Of a stretch of 44,201 nucleotides of DNA, positions 4,084-40,345 are shown in pieces (positions within the stretch are counted from its first letter, which is position 1; every line of letters starts with the position of its first letter). The notes beneath the pieces were generated by a model, which made no database searches, was not told where the DNA came from, and worked only from the letters and a program-made list of their open reading frames with translations. The stretch is taken from assembly GCA_016841285.1 (NCBI GenBank), contig JAENZK010000003.1:1-44201 (forward strand), written 5' to 3'. The position numbers and the translations under genes are program-made. This DNA is from Guptibacillus hwajinpoensis. Lineage in GTDB: Bacteria; Bacillota; Bacilli; Bacillales; Bacillaceae_J.

Positions 4084-4620
4084 ATGAAAATAATTAAGTT
4101 TTTTAATTTCATTGATCGCATAGCCGTTGGCATAGCTATTATATCATTGTTTGTAATGATGGTATTAATTACTATGGATTCATTAGCTAGATCAGTATTA
4201 AATAACCCGATTGTCGGTGTGTTAGAACTTACTGAAAAGTATTTAATGGTTTCTTTCGTTTTTTTAAGTTTAAGTTACACGATGAAAAAAAATGGACACA
4301 TTCGAATTGATTTATTTTTAAATAAACTTTCTGGATGGACATTGTTTCTTTTGGAAAGTTTTGGGTTAGCGGCAGGCATGGTTTTGTTTGTTGGCGTTGC
4401 TTACCAAGGAGTATTATCGACACTTGAAGCATATACACACAATTATGTTGAAACTGGTGTAATACCATGGCCATTATGGCTTTCTTTAATTTGGGTTCCA
4501 ATCGGCTCGTTGCTTTTAATAGGGAGAATTATTATTTATATTATGAATTTATTTCAATATATGAAAGAATCAAAACCTGCTAAAAAAGAAAGTGAAGATA
4601 ATAAAGAAGAAATAATTTAG
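4084..4620 (+). CDS. TRAP transporter small permease (DctQ)
   Basis: Four hydrophobic segments, DctQ-type order before DctM. Confidence 0.88.
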   Translation: MKIIKFFNFIDRIAVGIAIISLFVMMVLITMDSLARSVLNNPIVGVLELTEKYLMVSFVFLSLSYTMKKNGHIRIDLFLNKLSGWTLFLLESFGLAAGMVLFVGVAYQGVLSTLEAYTHNYVETGVIPWPLWLSLIWVPIGSLLLIGRIIIYIMNLFQYMKESKPAKKESEDNKEEII

Positions 4621-4666
4621 ATGTAAGTAAGTGAGTTTCTAATAATCTGTATATAGGAGGGGTTAA

Positions 4667-5956
4667 ATGGAAATTGCAATAATTATTATTTTATTAATTT
4701 TTTTCATGTTTATTGGAATGCCGATTGCGTTTGCGCTAGGGTTTACAGGAAGTATTGGCCTCTTGGTTTATGGTGGTTGGGATACAGCAATGGGAATTCT
4801 TCAAACGAGTCCTCATGGTACGACAGCAAGTTTCTTGTTAACAACAGTTCCTATGTACATTTTAATGGCAGAATTTTTGAATAAAAGCGATATTATCAAA
4901 GATTTTTATTATTCCTCTCATAAATGGTTGGGTCACTACAAAGGTGGTCTAGGAATCTCGGCAATATTTGCCGGCGCTGGGATGGGAGCGGTTTGTGGTT
5001 CAAGTGTTGCATCGGCGTCAACAATGGCATCAACAGGCTATCCTGAAATGAAGAAATATGGTTACAACACTTCATTTGCAATGGGCATTGTTTCATCATC
5101 AGGTACTTTGGCTATCCTCATCCCGCCTAGTCTTGCTCTTATTATTTATGGGATTTTAACAGATGTTCCTATAGGCCATCTATTAATTGCTGGGCTTGTT
5201 CCAGGGATCATAACAGCGATTGGTTACATTATAACCATTCGTTTTATGATTGCTATTAAACCAGATTTAGTGCGGAAAAGTGTTGAACCTGCGCCTTTTA
5301 AGGAAAGGGTATATTCTCTTAAAAATATCTGGCCAACCATTTTACTAATCATCATTATTATTTCAGTAATATTTCTAGGTGTTGCAACCGTTACCGAAGC
5401 AGGGGCGTTTGGTGCATTTTCTGCCTTGGTCTTAGGGCTTGTAATGAAACGCCTGACTATTAAAGGCATGAAAGAAGCATTTTTAAATACGTTAGAAACA
5501 ACAACTAAAATTTTAGCACTAATTGTTGGAGCAATGATTTTTGGTTACTTTTTAACCATTACACAAGTAACTCAAAATATTATTAATTTTGCTTCTACTA
5601 CAGAACTTTCTAAATGGACTATTTTGCTAATGGTATGTCTGCTATACCTTATTTTAGGATTGTTTTTAGACGGTACAGCAATACTCTTATTGACAATACC
5701 GTTAACATTTCCATTAATGATGGCATTAGATTTTAGTCCAATTTGGTATGGTGTGATCGTTACAAAACTTATTGAAATTGGCTTATTGACGCCACCACTC
5801 GGTATGAATGTATTCGTAGCATCGAGTGCAGCTGGTGTTGGTGTTGACAAATCTTTTAAAGGGGTGATGCCTTTTATTGCATGTGAGGTTGTTTTAATAG
5901 CTATTTTGATTGCGTTTCCTTCAATCACTACGTTCTTACCAGAATTAAATGGGTAA
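4667..5956 (+). CDS. TRAP transporter large permease (DctM)
   Basis: GMPIAFALGFTG, GAGMGAVCGSSVASASTMASTGYPEM, multi-TM. Confidence 0.95.
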   Translation: MEIAIIIILLIFFMFIGMPIAFALGFTGSIGLLVYGGWDTAMGILQTSPHGTTASFLLTTVPMYILMAEFLNKSDIIKDFYYSSHKWLGHYKGGLGISAIFAGAGMGAVCGSSVASASTMASTGYPEMKKYGYNTSFAMGIVSSSGTLAILIPPSLALIIYGILTDVPIGHLLIAGLVPGIITAIGYIITIRFMIAIKPDLVRKSVEPAPFKERVYSLKNIWPTILLIIIIISVIFLGVATVTEAGAFGAFSALVLGLVMKRLTIKGMKEAFLNTLETTTKILALIVGAMIFGYFLTITQVTQNIINFASTTELSKWTILLMVCLLYLILGLFLDGTAILLLTIPLTFPLMMALDFSPIWYGVIVTKLIEIGLLTPPLGMNVFVASSAAGVGVDKSFKGVMPFIACEVVLIAILIAFPSITTFLPELNG

Positions 5957-28727: not shown

Positions 28728-28945
28728 GGAACGGAAATGAATCTTCATCTTAAGAAAGCCCGTGGTTGTTGTAAACGGGTGTTGAAATCATTTCTTCTCA
28801 CCTTGGAGACTTTCCTCTGAACTTGTAGTAGGAGGAACGATTTACATCGTTATTTTGTTAAGTAAACGTTTACTTATTAAGGATGTTGTCGTGAGTCAGC
28901 AGCGAAAGAGGGTGGTACCGCAAAGCAATTTGTCCCTCTATTTTA
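28728..28945 (+). promoter_or_regulatory. T-box riboswitch leader, probable Leu (CUC) specifier
   Basis: AGGGTGGTACCGC (28909-28921) T-box motif; TCCCTCT pairing partner at 28933-28939; Stem-I-like AAGAAAGCCCGTGG; candidate CTC specifier at 28797-28799 in CTCACCTTGGAG; upstream of leuA. Confidence 0.85.
28860..28875. promoter_or_regulatory. Perfect 16-bp palindrome inside the T-box leader, cre-like core
   Basis: AAGTAAACGTTTACTT. Confidence 0.55.
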
Positions 28946-28988
28946 AGTGAAGGTTTTTTATATTTCAAAAAACAAGGAGGTACTATTA

Positions 28989-30530
28989 ATGGGGAAAAGA
29001 GTGTATTTTTTTGATACTACACTAAGGGATGGTGAACAAACACCAGGTGTTAGTTTAAATCAACTAGAGAAGGTTGAAATTGCATTGCGTTTAGAAGCTT
29101 TAGGAATTGATGTTATTGAAGCAGGTTTTGCTGCTGCATCACCTGGAGATGCAGCTTGTATCAGAGCTGTTGCTCAAGCCGTTTCAAAACCATTGGTAGT
29201 AGGTCTTGCCAGAGCAAATAAAGAAGATATTGATGCCGTTGTTCAATCCTTGGGAGATTTAGATAACACAGGTATACACATTTTCCTTGCAACTTCACCA
29301 ATACACCGACAGAAAAAATTAGGCATGACGAAACAAGAAGTAATCGATAGCTCAACAGAATGTGTTGCCTATGCTTCACAATTTTTTAAACATATCCAAT
29401 TTTCGTGTGAAGACTCAACACGTAGCGAATTAGACTTCCTATGTGAAGTGTCAGAAAGTGTAATTAAAGCAGGAGCGACAGTTTTAAATTTCCCGGACAC
29501 AGTTGGCTATACAACTCCTGAAGAATATACAAAACAATTTGAATATATTATCAAAAATACCAAAGGGATTGAGAATATACGTTTAAGCTGTCATTGCCAT
29601 AATGATTTGGGGTTAGCTGTAAGTAATAGTATTGCAGCATTAATGGCAGGAGCAACACAAGTAGAAGGTTGTATAACTGGGATTGGAGAAAGAGCTGGTA
29701 ATGTTGCATTAGAAGAAATTGCAGCACTTTTGGAAACAAGAAAAGACTATTACCAAAAAGAAACTGGAATTAATCTAAAAGAGATTGCTAAGACGAGTAA
29801 ATTAGTAAGTCGTATTACAGGAATAGCCATTCCACCCAATAAAGCTGTTATCGGAGCGAATGCATTTGCACATGCTTCAGGTATCCACCAGGATGGTGTT
29901 ATTAAAGACAAATCCACGTATGAAATTATGAAACCTGAAAGCGTTGGTTTTACAGATTCAAAACTCGTTTTGGGTAAACTTTCAGGCCGAAATGCCCTAA
30001 AAAAGAGATTTGATGTATTAGGTTATACTGTGGCTGATGAAAATTTAAAGCAAATATTTGAGAAATATAAGGAACTTGCGGATCGAAAAAAAGAAATTTT
30101 TGAAGAAGACATTATTGCATTATTGGAAGCGGAAACTTCAAAAGATAAAAATACAAACTATATTTTTAAGGACTTAAGCATTCAAGTACTTAACAATAAA
30201 CAGTATAGGGCTTTTGTACATGTAATAAATGAGATGGATAATTCAATTGTTGAAGGTATAGGAGAAGGCAATGGGCCAATTGATGCAATTTATAAAGCCA
30301 TTGATAACTCGTTAAACAAGAATATAGAATTAACCGACTATAAGATAAATTCAATTTCAAAAGGAAAAGATTCCATTGGAGAAGTTTTTGTAAAAGTAAA
30401 AGAAACAAATAAAGCTTCCCAAGGAAGAGCCATAAATGTTGATATAATTATGGCAAGTGCAGAAGCTTATATTGATGCAATTAATCGTTTAATGAGAGTA
30501 ACTACAGATGTCAAAATGTTAATAGAATAG
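28989..30530 (+). CDS. leuA: 2-isopropylmalate synthase
   Basis: FDTTLRDGEQTPGVSLN, SCHCHNDLGLAVSNSIAA, GANAFAHASGIHQDGVIKDKSTYEI, C-terminal LeuA dimer domain; SD aaggagg. Confidence 0.92.
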   Translation: MGKRVYFFDTTLRDGEQTPGVSLNQLEKVEIALRLEALGIDVIEAGFAAASPGDAACIRAVAQAVSKPLVVGLARANKEDIDAVVQSLGDLDNTGIHIFLATSPIHRQKKLGMTKQEVIDSSTECVAYASQFFKHIQFSCEDSTRSELDFLCEVSESVIKAGATVLNFPDTVGYTTPEEYTKQFEYIIKNTKGIENIRLSCHCHNDLGLAVSNSIAALMAGATQVEGCITGIGERAGNVALEEIAALLETRKDYYQKETGINLKEIAKTSKLVSRITGIAIPPNKAVIGANAFAHASGIHQDGVIKDKSTYEIMKPESVGFTDSKLVLGKLSGRNALKKRFDVLGYTVADENLKQIFEKYKELADRKKEIFEEDIIALLEAETSKDKNTNYIFKDLSIQVLNNKQYRAFVHVINEMDNSIVEGIGEGNGPIDAIYKAIDNSLNKNIELTDYKINSISKGKDSIGEVFVKVKETNKASQGRAINVDIIMASAEAYIDAINRLMRVTTDVKMLIE

Positions 30531-30540
30531 ATAGAAAGTA

Positions 30541-30570
30541 AAAAAGCATCCAGAAGTTGGATGCTTTTTT
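30541..30570 (+). terminator. Intrinsic terminator after leuA
   Basis: AAAAAGCATCCA-gaagt-TGGATGCTTTTTT. Confidence 0.92.
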
Positions 30571-30619
30571 ATTAAAGATAAACAAGGTTATAAATATTAT
30601 GAAAAGTCAGAATAAAACA

Positions 30620-30648
30620 TTGACTTCTAGAGAGTCATATACTAGAAT
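30620..30648 (+). promoter_or_regulatory. Sigma-A type promoter for pyc
   Basis: TTGACT-N17-TAGAAT. Confidence 0.7.
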
Positions 30649-30709
30649 TTTATATAAAGAATTTAATTTCATATATAAAAACTCTTGAGCGAGATATGGA
30701 GGTTTAATC

Positions 30710-33700
30710 ATGATTAGCAAGAAGATTAAAAAGGTACTAGTTGCTAACAGAGGAGAAATAGCGATTCGTATATTTCGGGCATGTACTGAATTACATATTC
30801 GTACGGTTGCCATTTATTCTAAGGAAGATACAGGTTCATTCCACCGTTACAAAGCAGATGAAGCTTATTTAATAGGTGAAGGTAAGAAGCCAATTGATGC
30901 TTATCTTGATATTGAAGGTATTATTGAAATTGCCAAGAAAAATCAAGTTGATGCCATTCATCCGGGATACGGTTTTTTATCTGAAAATATCTTATTTGCA
31001 AAACGCTGTGAAGAGGAAGGAATTATCTTCATTGGCCCAAAAAGTGAACACCTTGATATGTTCGGGGATAAAGTTAAAGCTAGAAAGCAGGCAATTGCTG
31101 CTGATATTCCTGTTATTCCTGGAAGTAACGGTCCTGTCTCAAATGTAGAGGATATTCAATCTTTTGCGAATCAATTTGGTTATCCGTTTATTATTAAAGC
31201 TTCGCTTGGTGGAGGAGGCAGAGGAATGCGGATTGTCAGGTCTGAAAGTGAATTAACCGAAGCCTATAATCGAGCGAAATCAGAAGCAAAATCTGCTTTT
31301 GGAAATGATGAAGTATATGTTGAGAAATACATTGAAAATCCAAAGCATATTGAAGTACAAATCATAGCAGACCAACATGGTAGTATCGTTCACTTGTATG
31401 ATCGGGATTGTTCGGTTCAACGTCGCTATCAAAAAGTTGTCGAAGTCGCACCAAGTGTTTCACTAAGTAAAGACCTACGTGAAAAAATTTGTGAATCAGC
31501 CGTTCAATTAATGAAAAATGTTAATTATATTAATGCTGGAACAGTAGAATTTCTTGTTACAAATAGTGGCGAATTTTATTTTATTGAAGTTAATCCACGT
31601 GTTCAAGTGGAGCATACGATTACGGAAATGGTAACTGGAATTGATATCGTTCAATCACAAATTTTGATAGCATCTGGTGAAGAACTACATGGATCTGCTA
31701 TCGGAATACCAGAGCAGGACAAAATTTCTTGTAATGGATATGCAATCCAATCGCGGGTAACAACTGAGGATCCTAGTAATAACTTTATGCCGAACACTGG
31801 TAGAATTAATGCTTATCGCTCCGGTGGCGGGTTTGGTGTCCGCTTAGATACGGGGAATGGATTTAATGGTGCTGTAATTACACCTTACTATGATTCCTTA
31901 CTTGTAAAACTATCAACATGGGCTTTAACCTATGAACAGGCAGCGGTGAAAATGCTCCGTAACCTAAGAGAGTTTCGTATTCGAGGAATTAAGACGAATA
32001 TTGCTTTTTTAGAAAATGTAGTCCAACATCCTAACTTTTTATCAGGTGAGTATAATACCTCATTTATTGAAACAACACCCGAATTATTTGTTTTTCCGAA
32101 ACGTAAAGACCGTGGTACGAAGATGTTAACATTTATTGGTGAAACAATAGTTAATGGCTATCCTGGGCTTGAAAACATGAAAAAGCCTGTTTTTGATAAA
32201 CCAGTCATTCCAAAATTTAAACATTCAGATCCGATACTGACTGGTACGAAACAAATCTTAGAGCAGGAAGGCCCGGAAGGTTTGGCAAAGTGGGTGAAGG
32301 GGCAAAATCGAGTTCTTCTAACTGATACAACATTCCGTGACGCACATCAATCATTACTTGCTACTAGGGTAAGGACTCATGATTTGAAACAAATCGCTGA
32401 ACCTACCGCGCGAATGTTACCGAATTTATTTTCGATGGAAATGTGGGGGGGAGCAACATATGATGTAGCTATGCGATTCTTACATGAAGATCCTTGGGAA
32501 AGATTACTCGTTCTTCGTGAAAAGATTCCTAATATACTGTTTCAAATGTTAATTCGCTCTTCCAATACGGTTGGCTATACGAACTATCCAGATAATCTCA
32601 TTAAAGAATTTGTGAAAAAATCAGCAGAAGCAGGTATTGATGTATTTAGAATATTTGATAGCTTAAACTGGGTTGAGGGTATGAGGTTAACAATCGATGC
32701 AGTGAGGGATTCAGGAAAAATAGCAGAAGCAGCCATGTGCTATACCGGAGATATTCTTGATTCATCTCGAAATAAATATGATTTAAATTATTATAAGAAT
32801 TTAGCAAAAGAGTTAGAACAATGTGGCACACACATTTTAGGAATTAAAGATATGGCCGGGTTATTAAAACCAGAGGCAGCTTATCAATTAGTATCAACAT
32901 TGAAAGAAACTGTAGATATTCCGATTCATCTTCATACCCATGATACGAGCGGCAATGGATTATTAATGTATTCAAGAGCGATTGAAGCTGGTGTTGATAT
33001 TGTTGATGTCGCAGTAAGTTCAATGGCTGGATTAACTTCGCAACCAAGTGCTAACAGTATATATTATGCTTTATCTGGCTTAGATCGACAACCGGATGTA
33101 AATGTCGAATCTCTTGAAAGGTTAAGTGAATACTGGGAAGCAACGAGAAAGTATTATAGTGGCTTTGAAAGTGGAATGAACGCTCCTCATAGTGAAATAT
33201 ACCAACATGAAATGCCGGGAGGACAATATAGTAATCTTCAACAGCAAGCGAAAGCGGTGGGCTTAAAAAACCGTTGGAATGATGTGAAGAAAATGTATCG
33301 CACCGTTAATGATATGTTCGGAGATGTTGTCAAGGTAACTCCGTCATCTAAGGTTGTAGGTGATATGGCGCTATATATGGTTCAAAACGACTTAACTGAA
33401 GAGGCTATTTATGAAAATGGAGATTTATTAGATTTCCCAGACTCTGTCGTTGAATTTTTCCAAGGACAACTGGGCCAACCTTATCAAGGATTTCCAAAGA
33501 AACTTCAGGAGATTATCTTAAAAGGTAGAGAAGCAATTACCTGTCGTCCTGGTGAATTAATGGAGGACGTAAATTTTGATCAGGTCAAAGAAATGCTATT
33601 TAACGATTTAGAACGACAAGTAACTGATTTTGATATCCTATCATATTGTATGTATCCAAAAGTTTTTAAAGAGTATGAGCGGTTTAAAGAATCGTTTGGT

Positions 33701-34156
33701 GACGTTTCAGTTTTGGATACGCCTACATTTTTCTATGGATTACGACTTGGTGAGGAAGTAGAAGTAGAAATTGAGCAAGGAAAGATATTAATTGTTAAGC
33801 TAATTTCTATTTCCAAACCATTAGCTGATGGTCTAAGAATTGTTTATTTTGAATTAAATGGTCAACCACGGGAAGTTATGATTAGAGACAAAAATGTCAA
33901 AACAAGTGTAGTAATTCGTCCGAAGGCTGAAAAAGAAAATCCAAATCAGATTGGTGCTTCCATGCCTGGTACTGTTATCAAGACTTTAGTTGTAAAAGGG
34001 GATAAAGTAAAAAAAGGTGAGCACTTAATGATCACTGAGGCAATGAAAATGGAAACAACTGTTCAGGCACCTTTTGACGGGGAAATTGTAGAAGTCTATG
34101 TGAAAAATGGGGAAGCGATACAAACTGGGGATCTATTAATCGAACTAAATTCATAA
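30710..34156 (+). CDS. pyc: Pyruvate carboxylase
   Basis: 1148 aa; biotin carboxylase (ASLGGGGRGMRIV), carboxyltransferase (LLTDTTFRDAHQSLLATRVRT) and biotinyl (TEAMKMETT) domains. Confidence 0.97.
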   Translation: MISKKIKKVLVANRGEIAIRIFRACTELHIRTVAIYSKEDTGSFHRYKADEAYLIGEGKKPIDAYLDIEGIIEIAKKNQVDAIHPGYGFLSENILFAKRCEEEGIIFIGPKSEHLDMFGDKVKARKQAIAADIPVIPGSNGPVSNVEDIQSFANQFGYPFIIKASLGGGGRGMRIVRSESELTEAYNRAKSEAKSAFGNDEVYVEKYIENPKHIEVQIIADQHGSIVHLYDRDCSVQRRYQKVVEVAPSVSLSKDLREKICESAVQLMKNVNYINAGTVEFLVTNSGEFYFIEVNPRVQVEHTITEMVTGIDIVQSQILIASGEELHGSAIGIPEQDKISCNGYAIQSRVTTEDPSNNFMPNTGRINAYRSGGGFGVRLDTGNGFNGAVITPYYDSLLVKLSTWALTYEQAAVKMLRNLREFRIRGIKTNIAFLENVVQHPNFLSGEYNTSFIETTPELFVFPKRKDRGTKMLTFIGETIVNGYPGLENMKKPVFDKPVIPKFKHSDPILTGTKQILEQEGPEGLAKWVKGQNRVLLTDTTFRDAHQSLLATRVRTHDLKQIAEPTARMLPNLFSMEMWGGATYDVAMRFLHEDPWERLLVLREKIPNILFQMLIRSSNTVGYTNYPDNLIKEFVKKSAEAGIDVFRIFDSLNWVEGMRLTIDAVRDSGKIAEAAMCYTGDILDSSRNKYDLNYYKNLAKELEQCGTHILGIKDMAGLLKPEAAYQLVSTLKETVDIPIHLHTHDTSGNGLLMYSRAIEAGVDIVDVAVSSMAGLTSQPSANSIYYALSGLDRQPDVNVESLERLSEYWEATRKYYSGFESGMNAPHSEIYQHEMPGGQYSNLQQQAKAVGLKNRWNDVKKMYRTVNDMFGDVVKVTPSSKVVGDMALYMVQNDLTEEAIYENGDLLDFPDSVVEFFQGQLGQPYQGFPKKLQEIILKGREAITCRPGELMEDVNFDQVKEMLFNDLERQVTDFDILSYCMYPKVFKEYERFKESFGDVSVLDTPTFFYGLRLGEEVEVEIEQGKILIVKLISISKPLADGLRIVYFELNGQPREVMIRDKNVKTSVVIRPKAEKENPNQIGASMPGTVIKTLVVKGDKVKKGEHLMITEAMKMETTVQAPFDGEIVEVYVKNGEAIQTGDLLIELNS

Positions 34157-34190
34157 TGTGTAATAATCTAATATTTTTTGAGGTGTAAGA

Positions 34191-34328
34191 ATGCATAAAT
34201 TAAATAATGAAAGCTTAATGAATATTTATGAGGATGCTATTAGATTGAATCTAGAACGAGCATTTATTTTGCTAATTGAAAAAGAATTGAGTAGGAGAGG
34301 ATTATTAGTGGGTACATCAAATGTTTAA
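34191..34328 (+). CDS. sda: Sda-like sporulation histidine-kinase inhibitor, 45 aa (absent from ORF track)
   Basis: MHKLNNESLMNIYEDAIRLNLERAFILLIEKELSRRGLLVGTSNV; SD gaggtg; collinear with Sda pattern M-K-L-S-(D/N)-E-L-L...Y..A...NL...FI.LIE.EI.RR.L. Confidence 0.8.
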   Translation: MHKLNNESLMNIYEDAIRLNLERAFILLIEKELSRRGLLVGTSNV

Positions 34329-34380
34329 ACAACATGTTATTTGATAGAGATATATTTTAAATAAATGGGAGTGCAAATTA

Positions 34381-35618
34381 ATGAAATTAAACGAGGAGTC
34401 CCTCTTACTTCATAAAAGTTTCCGGGGAAAATTGTCGATTGAGTCAAAAGTTCCTGTCAGGGATGCAAAAGATCTAAGTTTAGCGTATTCTCCTGGGGTA
34501 GCTGAACCGTGTAGAGAAATTGCTGAGAATAAGGCAAAGGTATTTGATTATACCATCAAAGGAAACTATGTAGCGGTAGTTTCAGATGGAACAGCTGTAT
34601 TAGGACTTGGAAATATAGGTACAGAAGCGGCTTTACCTGTAATGGAAGGAAAAGCTTTACTGTTTAAGACATTTGCAGGTATTGATGCTTCCCCGATTTG
34701 CTTAGATACAACAGATGTAGAGCAAATTATAAATACAGTTAAAATGCTGCAGCCTACTTTTGGGGGGATTAATCTTGAAGATATTGCCGCTCCAAATTGT
34801 TTTTTTATAGAAGAACGATTTAAAAAGAATTGAATATTCCTGTTTTTCATGATGATCAACATGGGACAGCGATTGTAATCGCTGCCGGACTAATCAATGC
34901 TCTAAAAATAACTGGAAAAAATTTAAAAGAAATTAAACTGGTAGTTAATGGAGCCGGTGCCGCGGGTGTAGCAGTTACCAAGCTTTTATATCACATGGGC
35001 GCAAAAAATATTATTATGTGTGATTCAAAAGGAGCAATATTTGAAAAAAGAAGTTATATGGTATGAATTCAATTAAAGAAGAAGTTGCTCAGATCACAAA
35101 TAAAGGAAGGATAGAAGGAAAGCTTGAAGAGGTCGTTGTATGCGCAGATGTCTTTATAGGAGTTTCTGCTGCAGGAGCTAACACAAGAGATGGTTAGAAC
35201 AATGAATAACGACGCTATTATTTTTGCAATGGCCAATCCAAATCCAGAAATCATGCCAGAGGATGCAAAAGCAGCAGGAGCAAGAATAATAGGGACCGGA
35301 AGATCTGATTTTCCAAATCAAGTTAATAATGTATTAGCCTTCCCAGGCGTTTTTAGAGGAGCTTTAGATGTACTTGCTACAGATATAAATGAAGAAATGA
35401 AAAAGAGTGCTGTTTATGCTATTGCTAACTTAATATCTGAATTTGAACTTTCAGAAGAATATATTATCCCATCACCTTTTGATTATAGAGTGGCACCAGA
35501 GGTGGTGAAAATGGTTGCCCAAGCAGCTTTAGACACAGGTGTTGCTAGAAGAATAGTAGATCCGGAGGAAATAGCTGAAAAAACTAAAGAACTTACTAAA
35601 TTAAAACTAAGGTATTAA
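34381..35618 (+). pseudogene. NAD(P)-dependent malic enzyme, disrupted by about three frameshifts
   Basis: Three collinear ORF fragments (SLAYSPGVAEPCREI / IPVFHDDQHGTAIVIAAGLINAL / MVRTMNNDAIIFAMANPNPEIMPEDA). Confidence 0.88.
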
Positions 35619-35653
35619 TTAAGTGATACGTTTATAAACTAAAGTTTCACTAT

Positions 35654-35697
35654 AGGTTAAATGGAAATAATAAAAACTTTCCAGTGGGGTTTAACCT
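35654..35697. repeat. Inverted repeat downstream of malic enzyme
   Basis: AGGTTAAA / TTTAACCT with nested GGAAA/TTTCC. Confidence 0.5.
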
Positions 35698-35704
35698 TTA
35701 TCAG

Positions 35705-36292
35705 GGAATTAATCATTGTTGACCCTGGACAAGGGCATCCTGACCGCGCTGTAGGTCCAGACGGCGCTTTTGAATAGAGGATATAGCATTTAAAATTTCA
35801 TAGCTTTTAAGAGAGTAAGCCGATCCTCAGGAAGCGGGTGCCCTTGTATTATGACAAGGGAGGATAATTTTGATTTAGCTGATAAGGATTTTAAGCGCCA
35901 CAGTAAAAGAAAAAACCAAAATTTGTATCGGGGTGTGGAGTAAATCAATAAATTAGAAGGAGACATCCTGGTATTCGTACACTTAAATTCAAAACCTTCA
36001 CCAAGGTGGAGCGGTGCTCAAACCTTCTATTACTCGCGGTACGAAGAGAATAAGATCTTACAAAAGTTGAATCAATAGGAAATGGAAATCATTTTTGAAA
36101 ATACGTTAAAATGCAAAGGCAATTAATCATGTCTATCGTATTAAAGGAAGCAGGAATGCCTTCTGTATTAGTTGCAGTAGGATTTTTATCCAAACCCGGA
36201 GAGCAGGAGTAACTAAAGAAAAAAGCCTACCAGGATAAAAATGAAACGAGTATTTATCAAGGTATTTTGCAGCTATATACAGAGAATTTAAA
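35705..36292 (+). pseudogene. cwlD: CwlD-like N-acetylmuramoyl-L-alanine amidase relic
   Basis: Fragments in several frames: LIIVDPGQGHPDRAVGPDGAFE*, QEAGALVLMTRE, DLADKDFKRHSKRK, VHLNSKPSPRWSGAQTFYYSR, EAGMPSVLVAVGFLSKPGEQE, IYQGILQLYTEN. Confidence 0.8.
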
Positions 36293-36355
36293 TTTCACTA
36301 TTGTATTATGTTATAGCCGTTATGTCAAAATAATTTTAATAGGTGGTGGGTTGGG

Positions 36356-37405
36356 TTGTTAACTAATGAACAAGTTAGGGACATACTAGAAAAGATTAAG
36401 GATCCTTATTTGCATAGAACACTGGCTGAAACTTATGGAATTGAGGAAATTAGCATAAAAGAAGAAAAAAAACATGTAAGTGTTAAAGTTGCCATTGCAC
36501 AAGCAGGCACAAAAGACCAGATGGAGATTCAACAGCAAATTGTCACAGCATTAAAAAATGGTGGCGCTACTTCTGTAGGGATCCGTGTAAATCAACTTCC
36601 TCCGGAGGTTGTAGCAAGTATGGCCCCTGCAGACGAGCCAAAATCAGTCTTATCTCCAGGTATTGGTACAACATTTATTGCGATTGCGAGTGGAAAAGGT
36701 GGAGTTGGAAAATCAACTGTATCCGTTAACCTTGCAGTAGCATTAGCTAGATTAGGCAAAAAAATAGGTCTTGTTGATGCCGATATTTATGGTTTTAGTG
36801 TACCTGATATGATGGGAATCGCTGAGCGCCCACAAGTTCAAAATGACCGAATTATGCCAGTTGAACGCTTTGGTGTTAAGGTGATTTCAATGGGCTTTTT
36901 TGTAGAAGATAATGCACCAATCATTTGGCGTGGTCCAATGTTAGGTAAAATGTTAAATCAGTTCTTTACAGAAGTTGAGTGGGGCGAGCTTGATTATTTA
37001 TTATTAGATTTACCTCCAGGAACTGGGGACGTAGCACTAGATGTTCATCAAATGATCCCTCATTGTAAAGAGATAATTGTAACAACTCCACACCCAACAG
37101 CAGCTTTTGTTGCTGCTCGTGCCGGTGCTATGGCATTGAAAACGGATCATGAGCTATTAGGTGTAATTGAGAATATGTCCTACTTTGAAAGTAAAGTAAC
37201 AGGCGAGGAAGAGTACGTCTTCGGTAAAGGCGGTGGAAAAAAGCTTGCTGAAGAATTAGATGTAGCTTTATTAGGACAAATTCAACTTGGTCAACCTGAA
37301 ATTGATGAAAATGATTTTGCTCCATCGATTTATGCCGAAACTCATAAAATTGGAAAGGTGTATCTTAAAATAGCTGAACAAGTTATTAAACTAACAGGAA
37401 AATAA
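36356..37405 (+). CDS. salA: Mrp/NBP35-family P-loop ATPase (SalA/ApbC-like), TTG start
   Basis: IASGKGGVGKSTVSVNLAVALARLGKKIGLVDADIYG, N-terminal DUF59-like region. Confidence 0.9.
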   Translation: MLTNEQVRDILEKIKDPYLHRTLAETYGIEEISIKEEKKHVSVKVAIAQAGTKDQMEIQQQIVTALKNGGATSVGIRVNQLPPEVVASMAPADEPKSVLSPGIGTTFIAIASGKGGVGKSTVSVNLAVALARLGKKIGLVDADIYGFSVPDMMGIAERPQVQNDRIMPVERFGVKVISMGFFVEDNAPIIWRGPMLGKMLNQFFTEVEWGELDYLLLDLPPGTGDVALDVHQMIPHCKEIIVTTPHPTAAFVAARAGAMALKTDHELLGVIENMSYFESKVTGEEEYVFGKGGGKKLAEELDVALLGQIQLGQPEIDENDFAPSIYAETHKIGKVYLKIAEQVIKLTGK

Positions 37406-37414
37406 ACTTAGCAT

Positions 37415-37935
37415 CAAAAAAGAGGCTGACCGTTAAGTCCCTTAAACAGAGAAAGTGGAGAAATCAATTCGATTTTCTCCACTTTATTTTACATCTTTCA
37501 GATAATTACCCGAAAGCAACTGGCGGATGCCTGCTATTTTCGGGTAATTGTGGGCAAAAGCCACAATTTCAAACGCGACATGTACTTTATCGAGGCCCCA
37601 CAACGAAAATCTGCGGCACGACCGGTTGCCCTTGCTTTCATCCCTTCTAAGATGGTTTTCCAGTGAACTTGACGAATTCCCTTCGCTTTTGTGCATTGTT
37701 CCGTTAATGTGCAATCTGTACAAATCTTCACATTCATATATTTTGAAGCTTTGGTCATAGCCAGATTTATTCTTTTTGTTTTGGTATTTTTTAAATAGTA
37801 ACTTTCTTCCGTTCAAGGCAAATAAAACAATCATCTTGTTAAGGGTCCAGTTTTTTGCGTTCTTGATATACTTATTAAATTTTCGTGTCTGTTCTTGAAT
37901 GTATGTGCCGTAAGGTATTAATATTAGCAATGAAA
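37415..37935 (-). mobile_element. IS1182-family transposase C-terminal relic
   Basis: Minus-strand frames give CTDCTLTEQCTKAKGIRQVHWKTILEGMKA and SKGNRSCRRFSLWGLDKVHVAFEIVAFAHNYPKIAGIRQ; flanking GAGGCTGACC end-like sequence. Confidence 0.8.
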
Positions 37936-37945
37936 TTATCTAATA

Positions 37946-37986
37946 AAATCCCGCTATTCATTCCGTATGGGGGATTTCATTTTTTT
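37946..37986 (+). terminator. Terminator-like hairpin
   Basis: AAATCCC...GGGATTT followed by TTTTTTT. Confidence 0.5.
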
Positions 37987-38083
37987 GACTAATGGATAAA
38001 ATAAAATAAAAAAAGAAGGATTTTTAATTAATTTGTCTAAATATTATGGAAAGTATGTTTTTTGTATTTTAGGAGGTATTTTC

Positions 38084-40345
38084 TTGAAGGAATATATTAT
38101 TAATCATAAGAGTATCATATTAAATACTTTTTATAGTTTAATATTATTACTTATCACCATAATTTTATTAATGCCTTACTTAAATTATATTTTTGTATTT
38201 GAAAATCGTGTTATTATTCATTCGCTTTTCGAATTGTTGAACATTTTTATTGCATATTCTATCTTTGTATATGGTTGGTACGCTTATCCATATATATTAT
38301 CAAGAACATACCTTTGGCTACCTATAATCTTTTTCTCATTAGGTACTTTAAGTTTACTGCACATGCTTACATATGCGGGAATGCCTACTTTTATTACGGA
38401 AAGTTCTGAGGTAAAGGAAGCATGGTTCGCTGTCTTAGGGAGATTAATACAAGCAATTGGAATGTTGATATTAATATTATTTTTGCTTAAGGACAAAAAG
38501 GGAAAGTTAATAAAGAGGAATTGGCTAATATTACCAACCTCCTTAATTTTGTTAATTATAGCATCCATTATTTTTATTAATGAGGACCACCTACCGGCAT
38601 TTATATTGAATGGTCAGTTCACATTATTAACAAAGATTACATATTCTTCATTTTTTGGGATTTTTGCATTTTCAATTATTTGTATCATCAAAAATTTAAA
38701 AAAAGTGAAAGATATTATTTATATATATTTGCTCATAGGTATATCGTTTTTACTCATAAGTAGCTTGTTTCCTATAATATTTAATGGTGCCCAAGGCTAT
38801 TATAATTTATTTATCCACCTATTATATGCACTTGGTAGTGTTTATATCTTTATTGGCTTTTATTCTTCCAAACTCCAGTTAACCTTCTTAGAGAAGGAAA
38901 AAATAGAAGAAGATTTAACCACTACCCAAACTTTATTAGAAGCTTTTTTTGATAATACACCTGCAGGAATGTTAATTCTTGATAAACAGGGGAAAGTAAT
39001 ACGTGCAAATAAAGGATTTGAAGTTCTTTTAGGAACAGAACAATCTGATATTATCGGTAGCGACTTCAAGACAATTTTTACAGAATCTAAGGACATTAAT
39101 GAAAAGCTAGAAGGAGTTCTTAACGGATTAAAAATTACAAATTTTGAGATCTCCCAAAAACGGGGAAATGGAGAAACCGTCTATCTCCTTATTACTTTAT
39201 CGGGTATTAATAATAGTAAAAATAATAAAAATATTGCTGTTGTTATCAAAGACATTACAGAACGAAAACAATTTGAGCAAAGGCTTCAGGAAGCAAAACA
39301 AGAATTAACTGATACAATCCGTCAACAGCAAGGAATTATTTTTAAATACCATAAAGTTGACAATTCCTTTATCCATACGTTTTTTGATGGAGAGTTGCTT
39401 TATAATATTGGTCTTACCCCTGAGAAAATGATTGGACATAAATTCAAGTCCCCTTTAGGAGATAAGGAATTAGATCATCTCATACATTATTATCAAACTG
39501 CTTGGGACGGTCTTGATGTAAACTTTGAATTGAAATGGAAACAATCCACCTTAGCTGTTTCATTAAAACCAATAAAAAAGGGGGCAAAAGTTGTCGAAGT
39601 TGTAGGTTCAATCATTGACATTACGCAATTAAAAAAGACAGAAGAATTATTAAGAAAGTCTGAAAAACTTGCGGTAGTTGGAGAATTGGCTGCTGGCGTA
39701 GCACATGAAATTCGAAATCCACTTACAACTTTAAAAGGTTTCACCCAACTACTGAGGGAAGAAGTTGACCAAAAGCGTTTACCGTTATTCGATTTTATGT
39801 CGTCAGAGCTAGAAAGAATTGAGATGATTACAAATGAGTTTATGACCATTGCAAAGCCGCAAGCTATTGAATACAAGGCAACTAAGATTAAGAAAATTAT
39901 AAATCAAGTTCTAGCCATCTTAGAGCCGCAAGCAATATTACAGAATGTAGTTATTAACAATCTGGATATCGATACTGACATTGAAGTTCTTTGTGATGAA
40001 AATCAGTTAAAGCAAGTATTCATTAATATTATCAAGAATGCTTTTGAAGCAATGCCGAATGGTGGAAACCTTATGGTTGAAATAAAAGAAGCATCTAATC
40101 ACTATATAGCAATTTCAATAAGAGACACTGGTGTCGGAATTCCGGAAGAAATCATTCCAAAACTGTGCGAGCCTTTCTATACTTTAAAGGAAAAAGGTAC
40201 AGGTTTAGGATTAATGGTTAGTTACCGAATCATAGAAGCTCATAAAGGAAACATTGAATTTTCAAGTGAGTTATCTAAAGGAACGGAGGTTAAAGTGAAA
40301 TTACCACAATATTCAAATGTAAGTTCTAGTTTAAGGGCCGTTTGA
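38084..40345 (+). CDS. Membrane sensor histidine kinase (MASE3-like N-terminus, two PAS regions, HisKA, HATPase)
   Basis: Multi-TM N-terminus (FENRVIIHSLFELLNIFIAYSIFVYGWYAYPYILSRTYLWLPIIFFSLGTLSLLHMLTYAGMP), GELAAGVAHEIRNPLTTLKGFTQLL H-box, N/G boxes; TTG 38084 follows AGGAGG. Confidence 0.9.
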   Translation: MKEYIINHKSIILNTFYSLILLLITIILLMPYLNYIFVFENRVIIHSLFELLNIFIAYSIFVYGWYAYPYILSRTYLWLPIIFFSLGTLSLLHMLTYAGMPTFITESSEVKEAWFAVLGRLIQAIGMLILILFLLKDKKGKLIKRNWLILPTSLILLIIASIIFINEDHLPAFILNGQFTLLTKITYSSFFGIFAFSIICIIKNLKKVKDIIYIYLLIGISFLLISSLFPIIFNGAQGYYNLFIHLLYALGSVYIFIGFYSSKLQLTFLEKEKIEEDLTTTQTLLEAFFDNTPAGMLILDKQGKVIRANKGFEVLLGTEQSDIIGSDFKTIFTESKDINEKLEGVLNGLKITNFEISQKRGNGETVYLLITLSGINNSKNNKNIAVVIKDITERKQFEQRLQEAKQELTDTIRQQQGIIFKYHKVDNSFIHTFFDGELLYNIGLTPEKMIGHKFKSPLGDKELDHLIHYYQTAWDGLDVNFELKWKQSTLAVSLKPIKKGAKVVEVVGSIIDITQLKKTEELLRKSEKLAVVGELAAGVAHEIRNPLTTLKGFTQLLREEVDQKRLPLFDFMSSELERIEMITNEFMTIAKPQAIEYKATKIKKIINQVLAILEPQAILQNVVINNLDIDTDIEVLCDENQLKQVFINIIKNAFEAMPNGGNLMVEIKEASNHYIAISIRDTGVGIPEEIIPKLCEPFYTLKEKGTGLGLMVSYRIIEAHKGNIEFSSELSKGTEVKVKLPQYSNVSSSLRAV

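Follow-up and report, generated by a model that had tools for sequence, protein, structure and literature searches.

A 45-residue protein encoded at positions 34191-34328 (+ strand) of the 44,201-nucleotide stretch of Guptibacillus hwajinpoensis DNA analysed here (the window) can be firmly assigned, from profile and residue matches, to the Sda family, and its gene lies between those for pyruvate carboxylase (pyc) and malic enzyme. Sda is a known brake on spore formation, which in B. subtilis reports replication status via DnaA and which is known to inhibit in trans. We put at about even the chances that the gene found here is a third Sda of its genome, borne by a metabolic operon and independent of DnaA, that vetoes the sporulation kinases.

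The short open reading frame (ORF) with a GAGGTG Shine-Dalgarno sequence that a preliminary description of this DNA had read here is exact. The frame opens with ATG and is intact, and the Shine-Dalgarno sequence, at 34180-34185 (+ strand), stands 5 bases 5' of that ATG. The same description had called the product Sda-like, which is borne out by a Pfam match to PF08970 over residues 1-38 (48.5 bits, E = 7.2e-13, against a curated gathering cut-off of 22.6 bits) and by a phmmer search in which the sole PDB sequences matched were three Sda entries: 1pv0, 3fyr and 3d36_C, the last being the Sda chain of the KinB complex 3d36. Measured against 129 Sda cores gathered from relatives, the ORF retains the near-invariant residues L4, L9, Y13, A16, L21, F25, I26, E32, R36 and L38. 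Among these, L21 and F25 are both in register and correspond to the surface of Sda that contacts KinA (PMC7430163). The 45-aa length likewise suits the family, whose members have about 46 aa. The ORF departs from the family at N5-N6 (for S-D), S8 (for L) and A24 (for D/E); the A24 and N5-N6 substitutions are uncommon or rare among Sda proteins, and we count them against a veto function for this copy. A single-sequence AlphaFold model folded the protein as one long helix (residues 6-35, pTM 0.56) with no hairpin, and a PDB fold search with that model returned no match.

The claimed location between pyruvate carboxylase and malic enzyme was confirmed. The upstream pyc (30710-34156, + strand) has a full-length match in relatives and is the second copy in the genome, the other being on C142/C318; its protein is 85% identical to that of Alkalihalobacillus sp. 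BA299 and at most 76% identical to those of its own genus. From the pyc stop to sda is 34 bp, and from sda to the malic enzyme gene 52 bp. The malic enzyme gene (34381-35618, + strand) is present as described but is not intact: this third copy of the genome is a frameshifted pseudogene, with the Pfam malic and Malic_M domains on separate ORFs and a tblastn match spread over two frames with stops, and intact copies are found elsewhere, on C115 and C300. A scan of the locus found no terminator-like site between the pyc, sda and malic enzyme genes, which supports placing the ORF within a metabolic gene group. Given this and the 34-bp gap, the pyc transcript likely drives sda, and we infer that the two are cotranscribed. 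At the edges of the group, a terminator-like inverted repeat with flanking T runs lies between leuA and pyc (30539-30571), a weak promoter-like site (TTGACT-17-TAGAAT, 10 of 12 matches) lies 5' of pyc (30620-30648, + strand), and a terminator-like hairpin after the malic enzyme pseudogene (35746-35767, + strand) is a possible end of the pyc-sda-malic transcript. Because promoter-like sites in the pyc region occur at chance-level number, these marks are suggestive only.

Three Sda genes score above the profile cut-off in the host genome, on C440, on C99 and in the window, so that the ORF is the third Sda and not, as had been proposed, the second. Two or more Sda genes are common, being present in 33 of the 61 genomes sampled from the order, so a second Sda would in itself be unremarkable. 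Expression of B. subtilis Sda depends on DnaA sites (PMC7430163). The canonical sda of the host, on C440, adjoins an ORF for a yqeG-type HAD phosphatase (yqeG being recognised by eye), and 7 DnaA-box-like sites, 2 of them exact, fall within about 150 bp of its upstream region. The ORF in the window, unlike this canonical copy, has no yqeG neighbour, and its sole nearby DnaA-box-like site is a single-mismatch one, 91 bp upstream and inside pyc. No DnaA-box cluster was found at the 3.1-kb pyc-sda locus, which has 4 such sites where 4.5 are expected by chance; with sites at chance level, we rejected a dedicated DnaA-controlled promoter. Judged from its sequence context, the third copy is DnaA-independent.

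The order pyc-sda-malic fits a set of operon-embedded Sda loci. We surveyed what lies on either side of about 100 Sda genes, calling a gene embedded when it lay between same-strand genes within 200 bp, and met an unexpected pattern. The extreme is the genome of a relative, G058, which has 17 Sda genes in 4.6 Mb (2 of the 17 broken or partial). Of its 16 extra copies, 12 are operon-embedded, compared with 8 of the 87 Sda genes from other genomes (Fisher P 1e-7); larger genes in general are embedded at a frequency of 0.41, which the G058 copies also exceed (P 0.006). These counts are exploratory, the loci having been sampled by similarity and from a few genomes in each family, and the test having been picked once the pattern had been seen. 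The 8 embedded genes outside G058 include the pyc-sda-malic copy; the remaining genes there mostly stand alone.

By Pfam, nearly all neighbours of the embedded Sda genes of G058 are nutrient-use genes, among them genes for inositol, glutamine, dicarboxylates, tricarboxylates and sugars (G058 Sda loci: L208, L213-L215, L232, L242, L252 and L369-L374). At L232, a sodium:dicarboxylate symporter gene precedes sda, which is followed by genes for a fumarase/aspartase-type lyase and malic enzyme. Elsewhere in this genome sda lies between TctB and TctA (tricarboxylates), after TctA, between aldehyde dehydrogenase and IolB (inositol), between glutaminase and a sodium:alanine symporter (on two near-identical short contigs), between DUF624 and PfkB, between DUF624 and a LacI regulator, between PdxA and a lactate-racemase-like gene, and between 3-hydroxyacyl-CoA dehydrogenase and a TRAP-type binding protein. 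At L369 a ThuA gene is followed by a single 399-aa frame (4245-5441 of that locus, - strand) in which Pfam finds both an Sda and a Gfo/Idh/MocA oxidoreductase domain, Sda forming an in-frame N-terminal fusion. Some pairings recur in other genomes: aminotransferase with sda in two families (L209 and L210, Pfam-checked; L381 alike by eye), and transporter permease with sda in two (L226 and L244, of which L244 alone was Pfam-checked). We found no published account of operon-embedded Sda among the openly licensed papers searched, which is no proof of novelty; the embedding of Sda in nutrient operons is apparently a recurring, undescribed arrangement.

The survey also recorded arrangements of other kinds. 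Sda convergent with odhB (2-oxoglutarate dehydrogenase E2) recurs in several families (L254, L255, L258, L259, L264, L266 and L377), and at a plasmid locus, L391, the odhB is annotated as such, those at the other loci being read by eye. Sda genes are also borne by Priestia plasmids (L388, L389 and L390), in one plasmid beside PAS kinase fragments and in a second close to genes resembling those for Spo0E and SinI.

Among known systems, B. subtilis Sda (1pv0, 3fyr) resembles the ORF in length, in 19 of 38 core residues, in L21 and F25 and in its family profile. It differs in that the ORF is not beside yqeG, lacks a DnaA-box cluster, lies inside a metabolic operon, has A in place of D24 and ends in a different C-terminal tail. 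The Sda of Geobacillus stearothermophilus, solved bound to KinB (3d36), is a relative of the ORF in sequence. That a metabolic operon can encode an inhibitor of a kinase has a precedent in kipI, which lies with 5-oxoprolinase genes (PMC10448178, PMC8534201). KipI/PxpB of B. subtilis inhibits KinA; it is an unrelated 240-aa protein and part of an enzyme, and its parallel with pyc-sda is one of logic only. Among the operon-embedded copies of G058, the Sda of L232, for example, likewise has carbon-metabolism genes on both sides and malic enzyme encoded downstream; the upstream genes are other ones and there is no sign that the two Sda proteins are orthologous.

Under the model that we favour at even chances, sda would be cotranscribed whenever the pyc operon is on, and a small helical-hairpin protein would be made. 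By analogy with known Sda, which in the KinB-Sda structure contacts the DHp bundle at its base (PMC8534201), this protein would attach to the same part of the DHp four-helix bundle in sporulation kinases of the KinA/KinB type and block their autophosphorylation. The Spo0A phosphorelay would then stay low, and the cell would not commit to sporulation while the pyc carbon route is in use. Such an Sda would be a trans-acting inhibitor of whatever KinA/KinB-like kinases the cell contains, and not one specific to a neighbouring kinase. The coupling of metabolism to sporulation that the preliminary description had suggested is plausible in this light and is strengthened by the Sda genes in other nutrient operons. 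A broader proposal, to which we give somewhat less than even weight, is that operons have time and again taken up an Sda as a veto of their own, so that individual nutrient-uptake and catabolic operons of Bacillales would, during induction, block the sporulation kinases; pyc-sda-malic would be one instance and G058, with at least 12 such operons, the extreme.

Around sda there are many duplicated genes, and several of these are in decay. Downstream, window positions 35685-37421 duplicate the canonical cwlD-salA segment of C139, with a broken cwlD copy and an intact salA copy whose protein shows 92% identity. Beyond it lies a transposase remnant (37487-37930, - strand), recognised by a DDE_Tnp_1_6 match that is weak and does not reach the curated cut-off. 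The pyc, salA and kinase genes of the region are all extra copies, and all are intact. A phage origin of the sda copy was rejected for want of any match in phage records, and a plasmid origin likewise, window positions 28900-38000 having no match in plasmid records. The assembly comprises 484 contigs with 3.4% estimated contamination and may include a second strain.

Such surroundings could also mean that this Sda is a stray, non-adaptive copy, mobile or duplicated, little expressed and in the course of being lost, a reading that we consider unlikely. The malic enzyme and cwlD copies are pseudogenes, so the area is decaying, which we count against an operon-borne veto; the transposase remnant, the accumulation of extra copies and the occurrence of Sda on Priestia plasmids likewise favour a stray gene. 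So does the phylogenetic distribution. No orthologue of the ORF was found in relatives, same-family genomes being without this copy, and the best matches among Sda proteins of other genomes reach 54-58% identity over 38-39 residues. Selection on this sda copy therefore cannot be shown, a further point against the veto. No other Sda was found near pyc, either in the flanks across 41 genomes searched with pyc or at 80 named pyc loci, and shared pyc-sda synteny is ruled out among them. The case for a stray copy is opposed by the integrity of the ORF, of its ribosome site and of nearly all family-invariant residues, by the intact state of pyc, salA and the kinase, and by the recurrence of Sda in apparently functional operons of other genomes. 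A firm family match combined with no orthologue in relatives points to recent gain, or to loss from the relatives, and not to a spurious ORF.

A second alternative, which we regard as quite improbable, is that the protein serves as a local partner of the MASE3-PAS kinase whose gene lies 3.7 kb downstream and of that kinase alone. The kinase itself was confirmed by its Pfam domains at 38033-40345 (+ strand; likely start 38084), with the HEIRNPLTTLKGF motif that had been noted in it. It is an orphan MASE3-PAS-HisKA-HATPase protein with the HEIRNP motif, and its KinB-like core has as its best PDB match the Geobacillus stearothermophilus KinB of 3d36 (E 1.4e-44), a kinase crystallised with Sda; we regard it as a possible, non-specific target. 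Near extra Sda genes in general, HisKA kinases are in excess: at distances of up to about 6 kb there are 13 of them, against an expectation of 5.2 (P 0.003; 79 loci, 915 kb). This set consists of non-canonical Sda loci (L207-L286, with L284 dropped because it had been picked for an already visible kinase); the few canonical copies among the loci fetched can only have diluted the effect. The enrichment is modest, mixes sporulation-type with other kinases, and does not single out the pair of sda and this kinase. At the kinase density of the host genome, about 1 locus in 10 would have a kinase this near by chance, and the proximity at the pyc-sda locus, being within chance, led us to reject a local kinase-inhibitor pair. 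The suggestion that the ORF acts locally on the kinase starting at 38084 is thus not upheld: about 5 kb separates sda from the catalytic domain, with a pseudogene, salA and the transposase remnant in between, and the genome encodes 38 HisKA kinases, 16 of them with similar cores, including a paralogue on C167 that is 84% identical in the core.

That the ORF arose by chance and encodes nothing, as its shortness, the failure to find orthologues and the lack of any match in an NCBIfam profile search might suggest, has a negligible probability and is untenable given a Pfam match of E = 7e-13 over 38 consecutive residues and specific matches to solved Sda structures.

The presence of Sda genes in nutrient operons of other bacteria as well suggests that such an operon may come with a signal of its own to hold off sporulation. 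If Sda paralogues do sit in carbon and nitrogen operons, the nutrient-using operon would itself make the kinase inhibitor. How a cell judges that food remains is a long-standing question, and this would be a simple, modular and testable answer to it.
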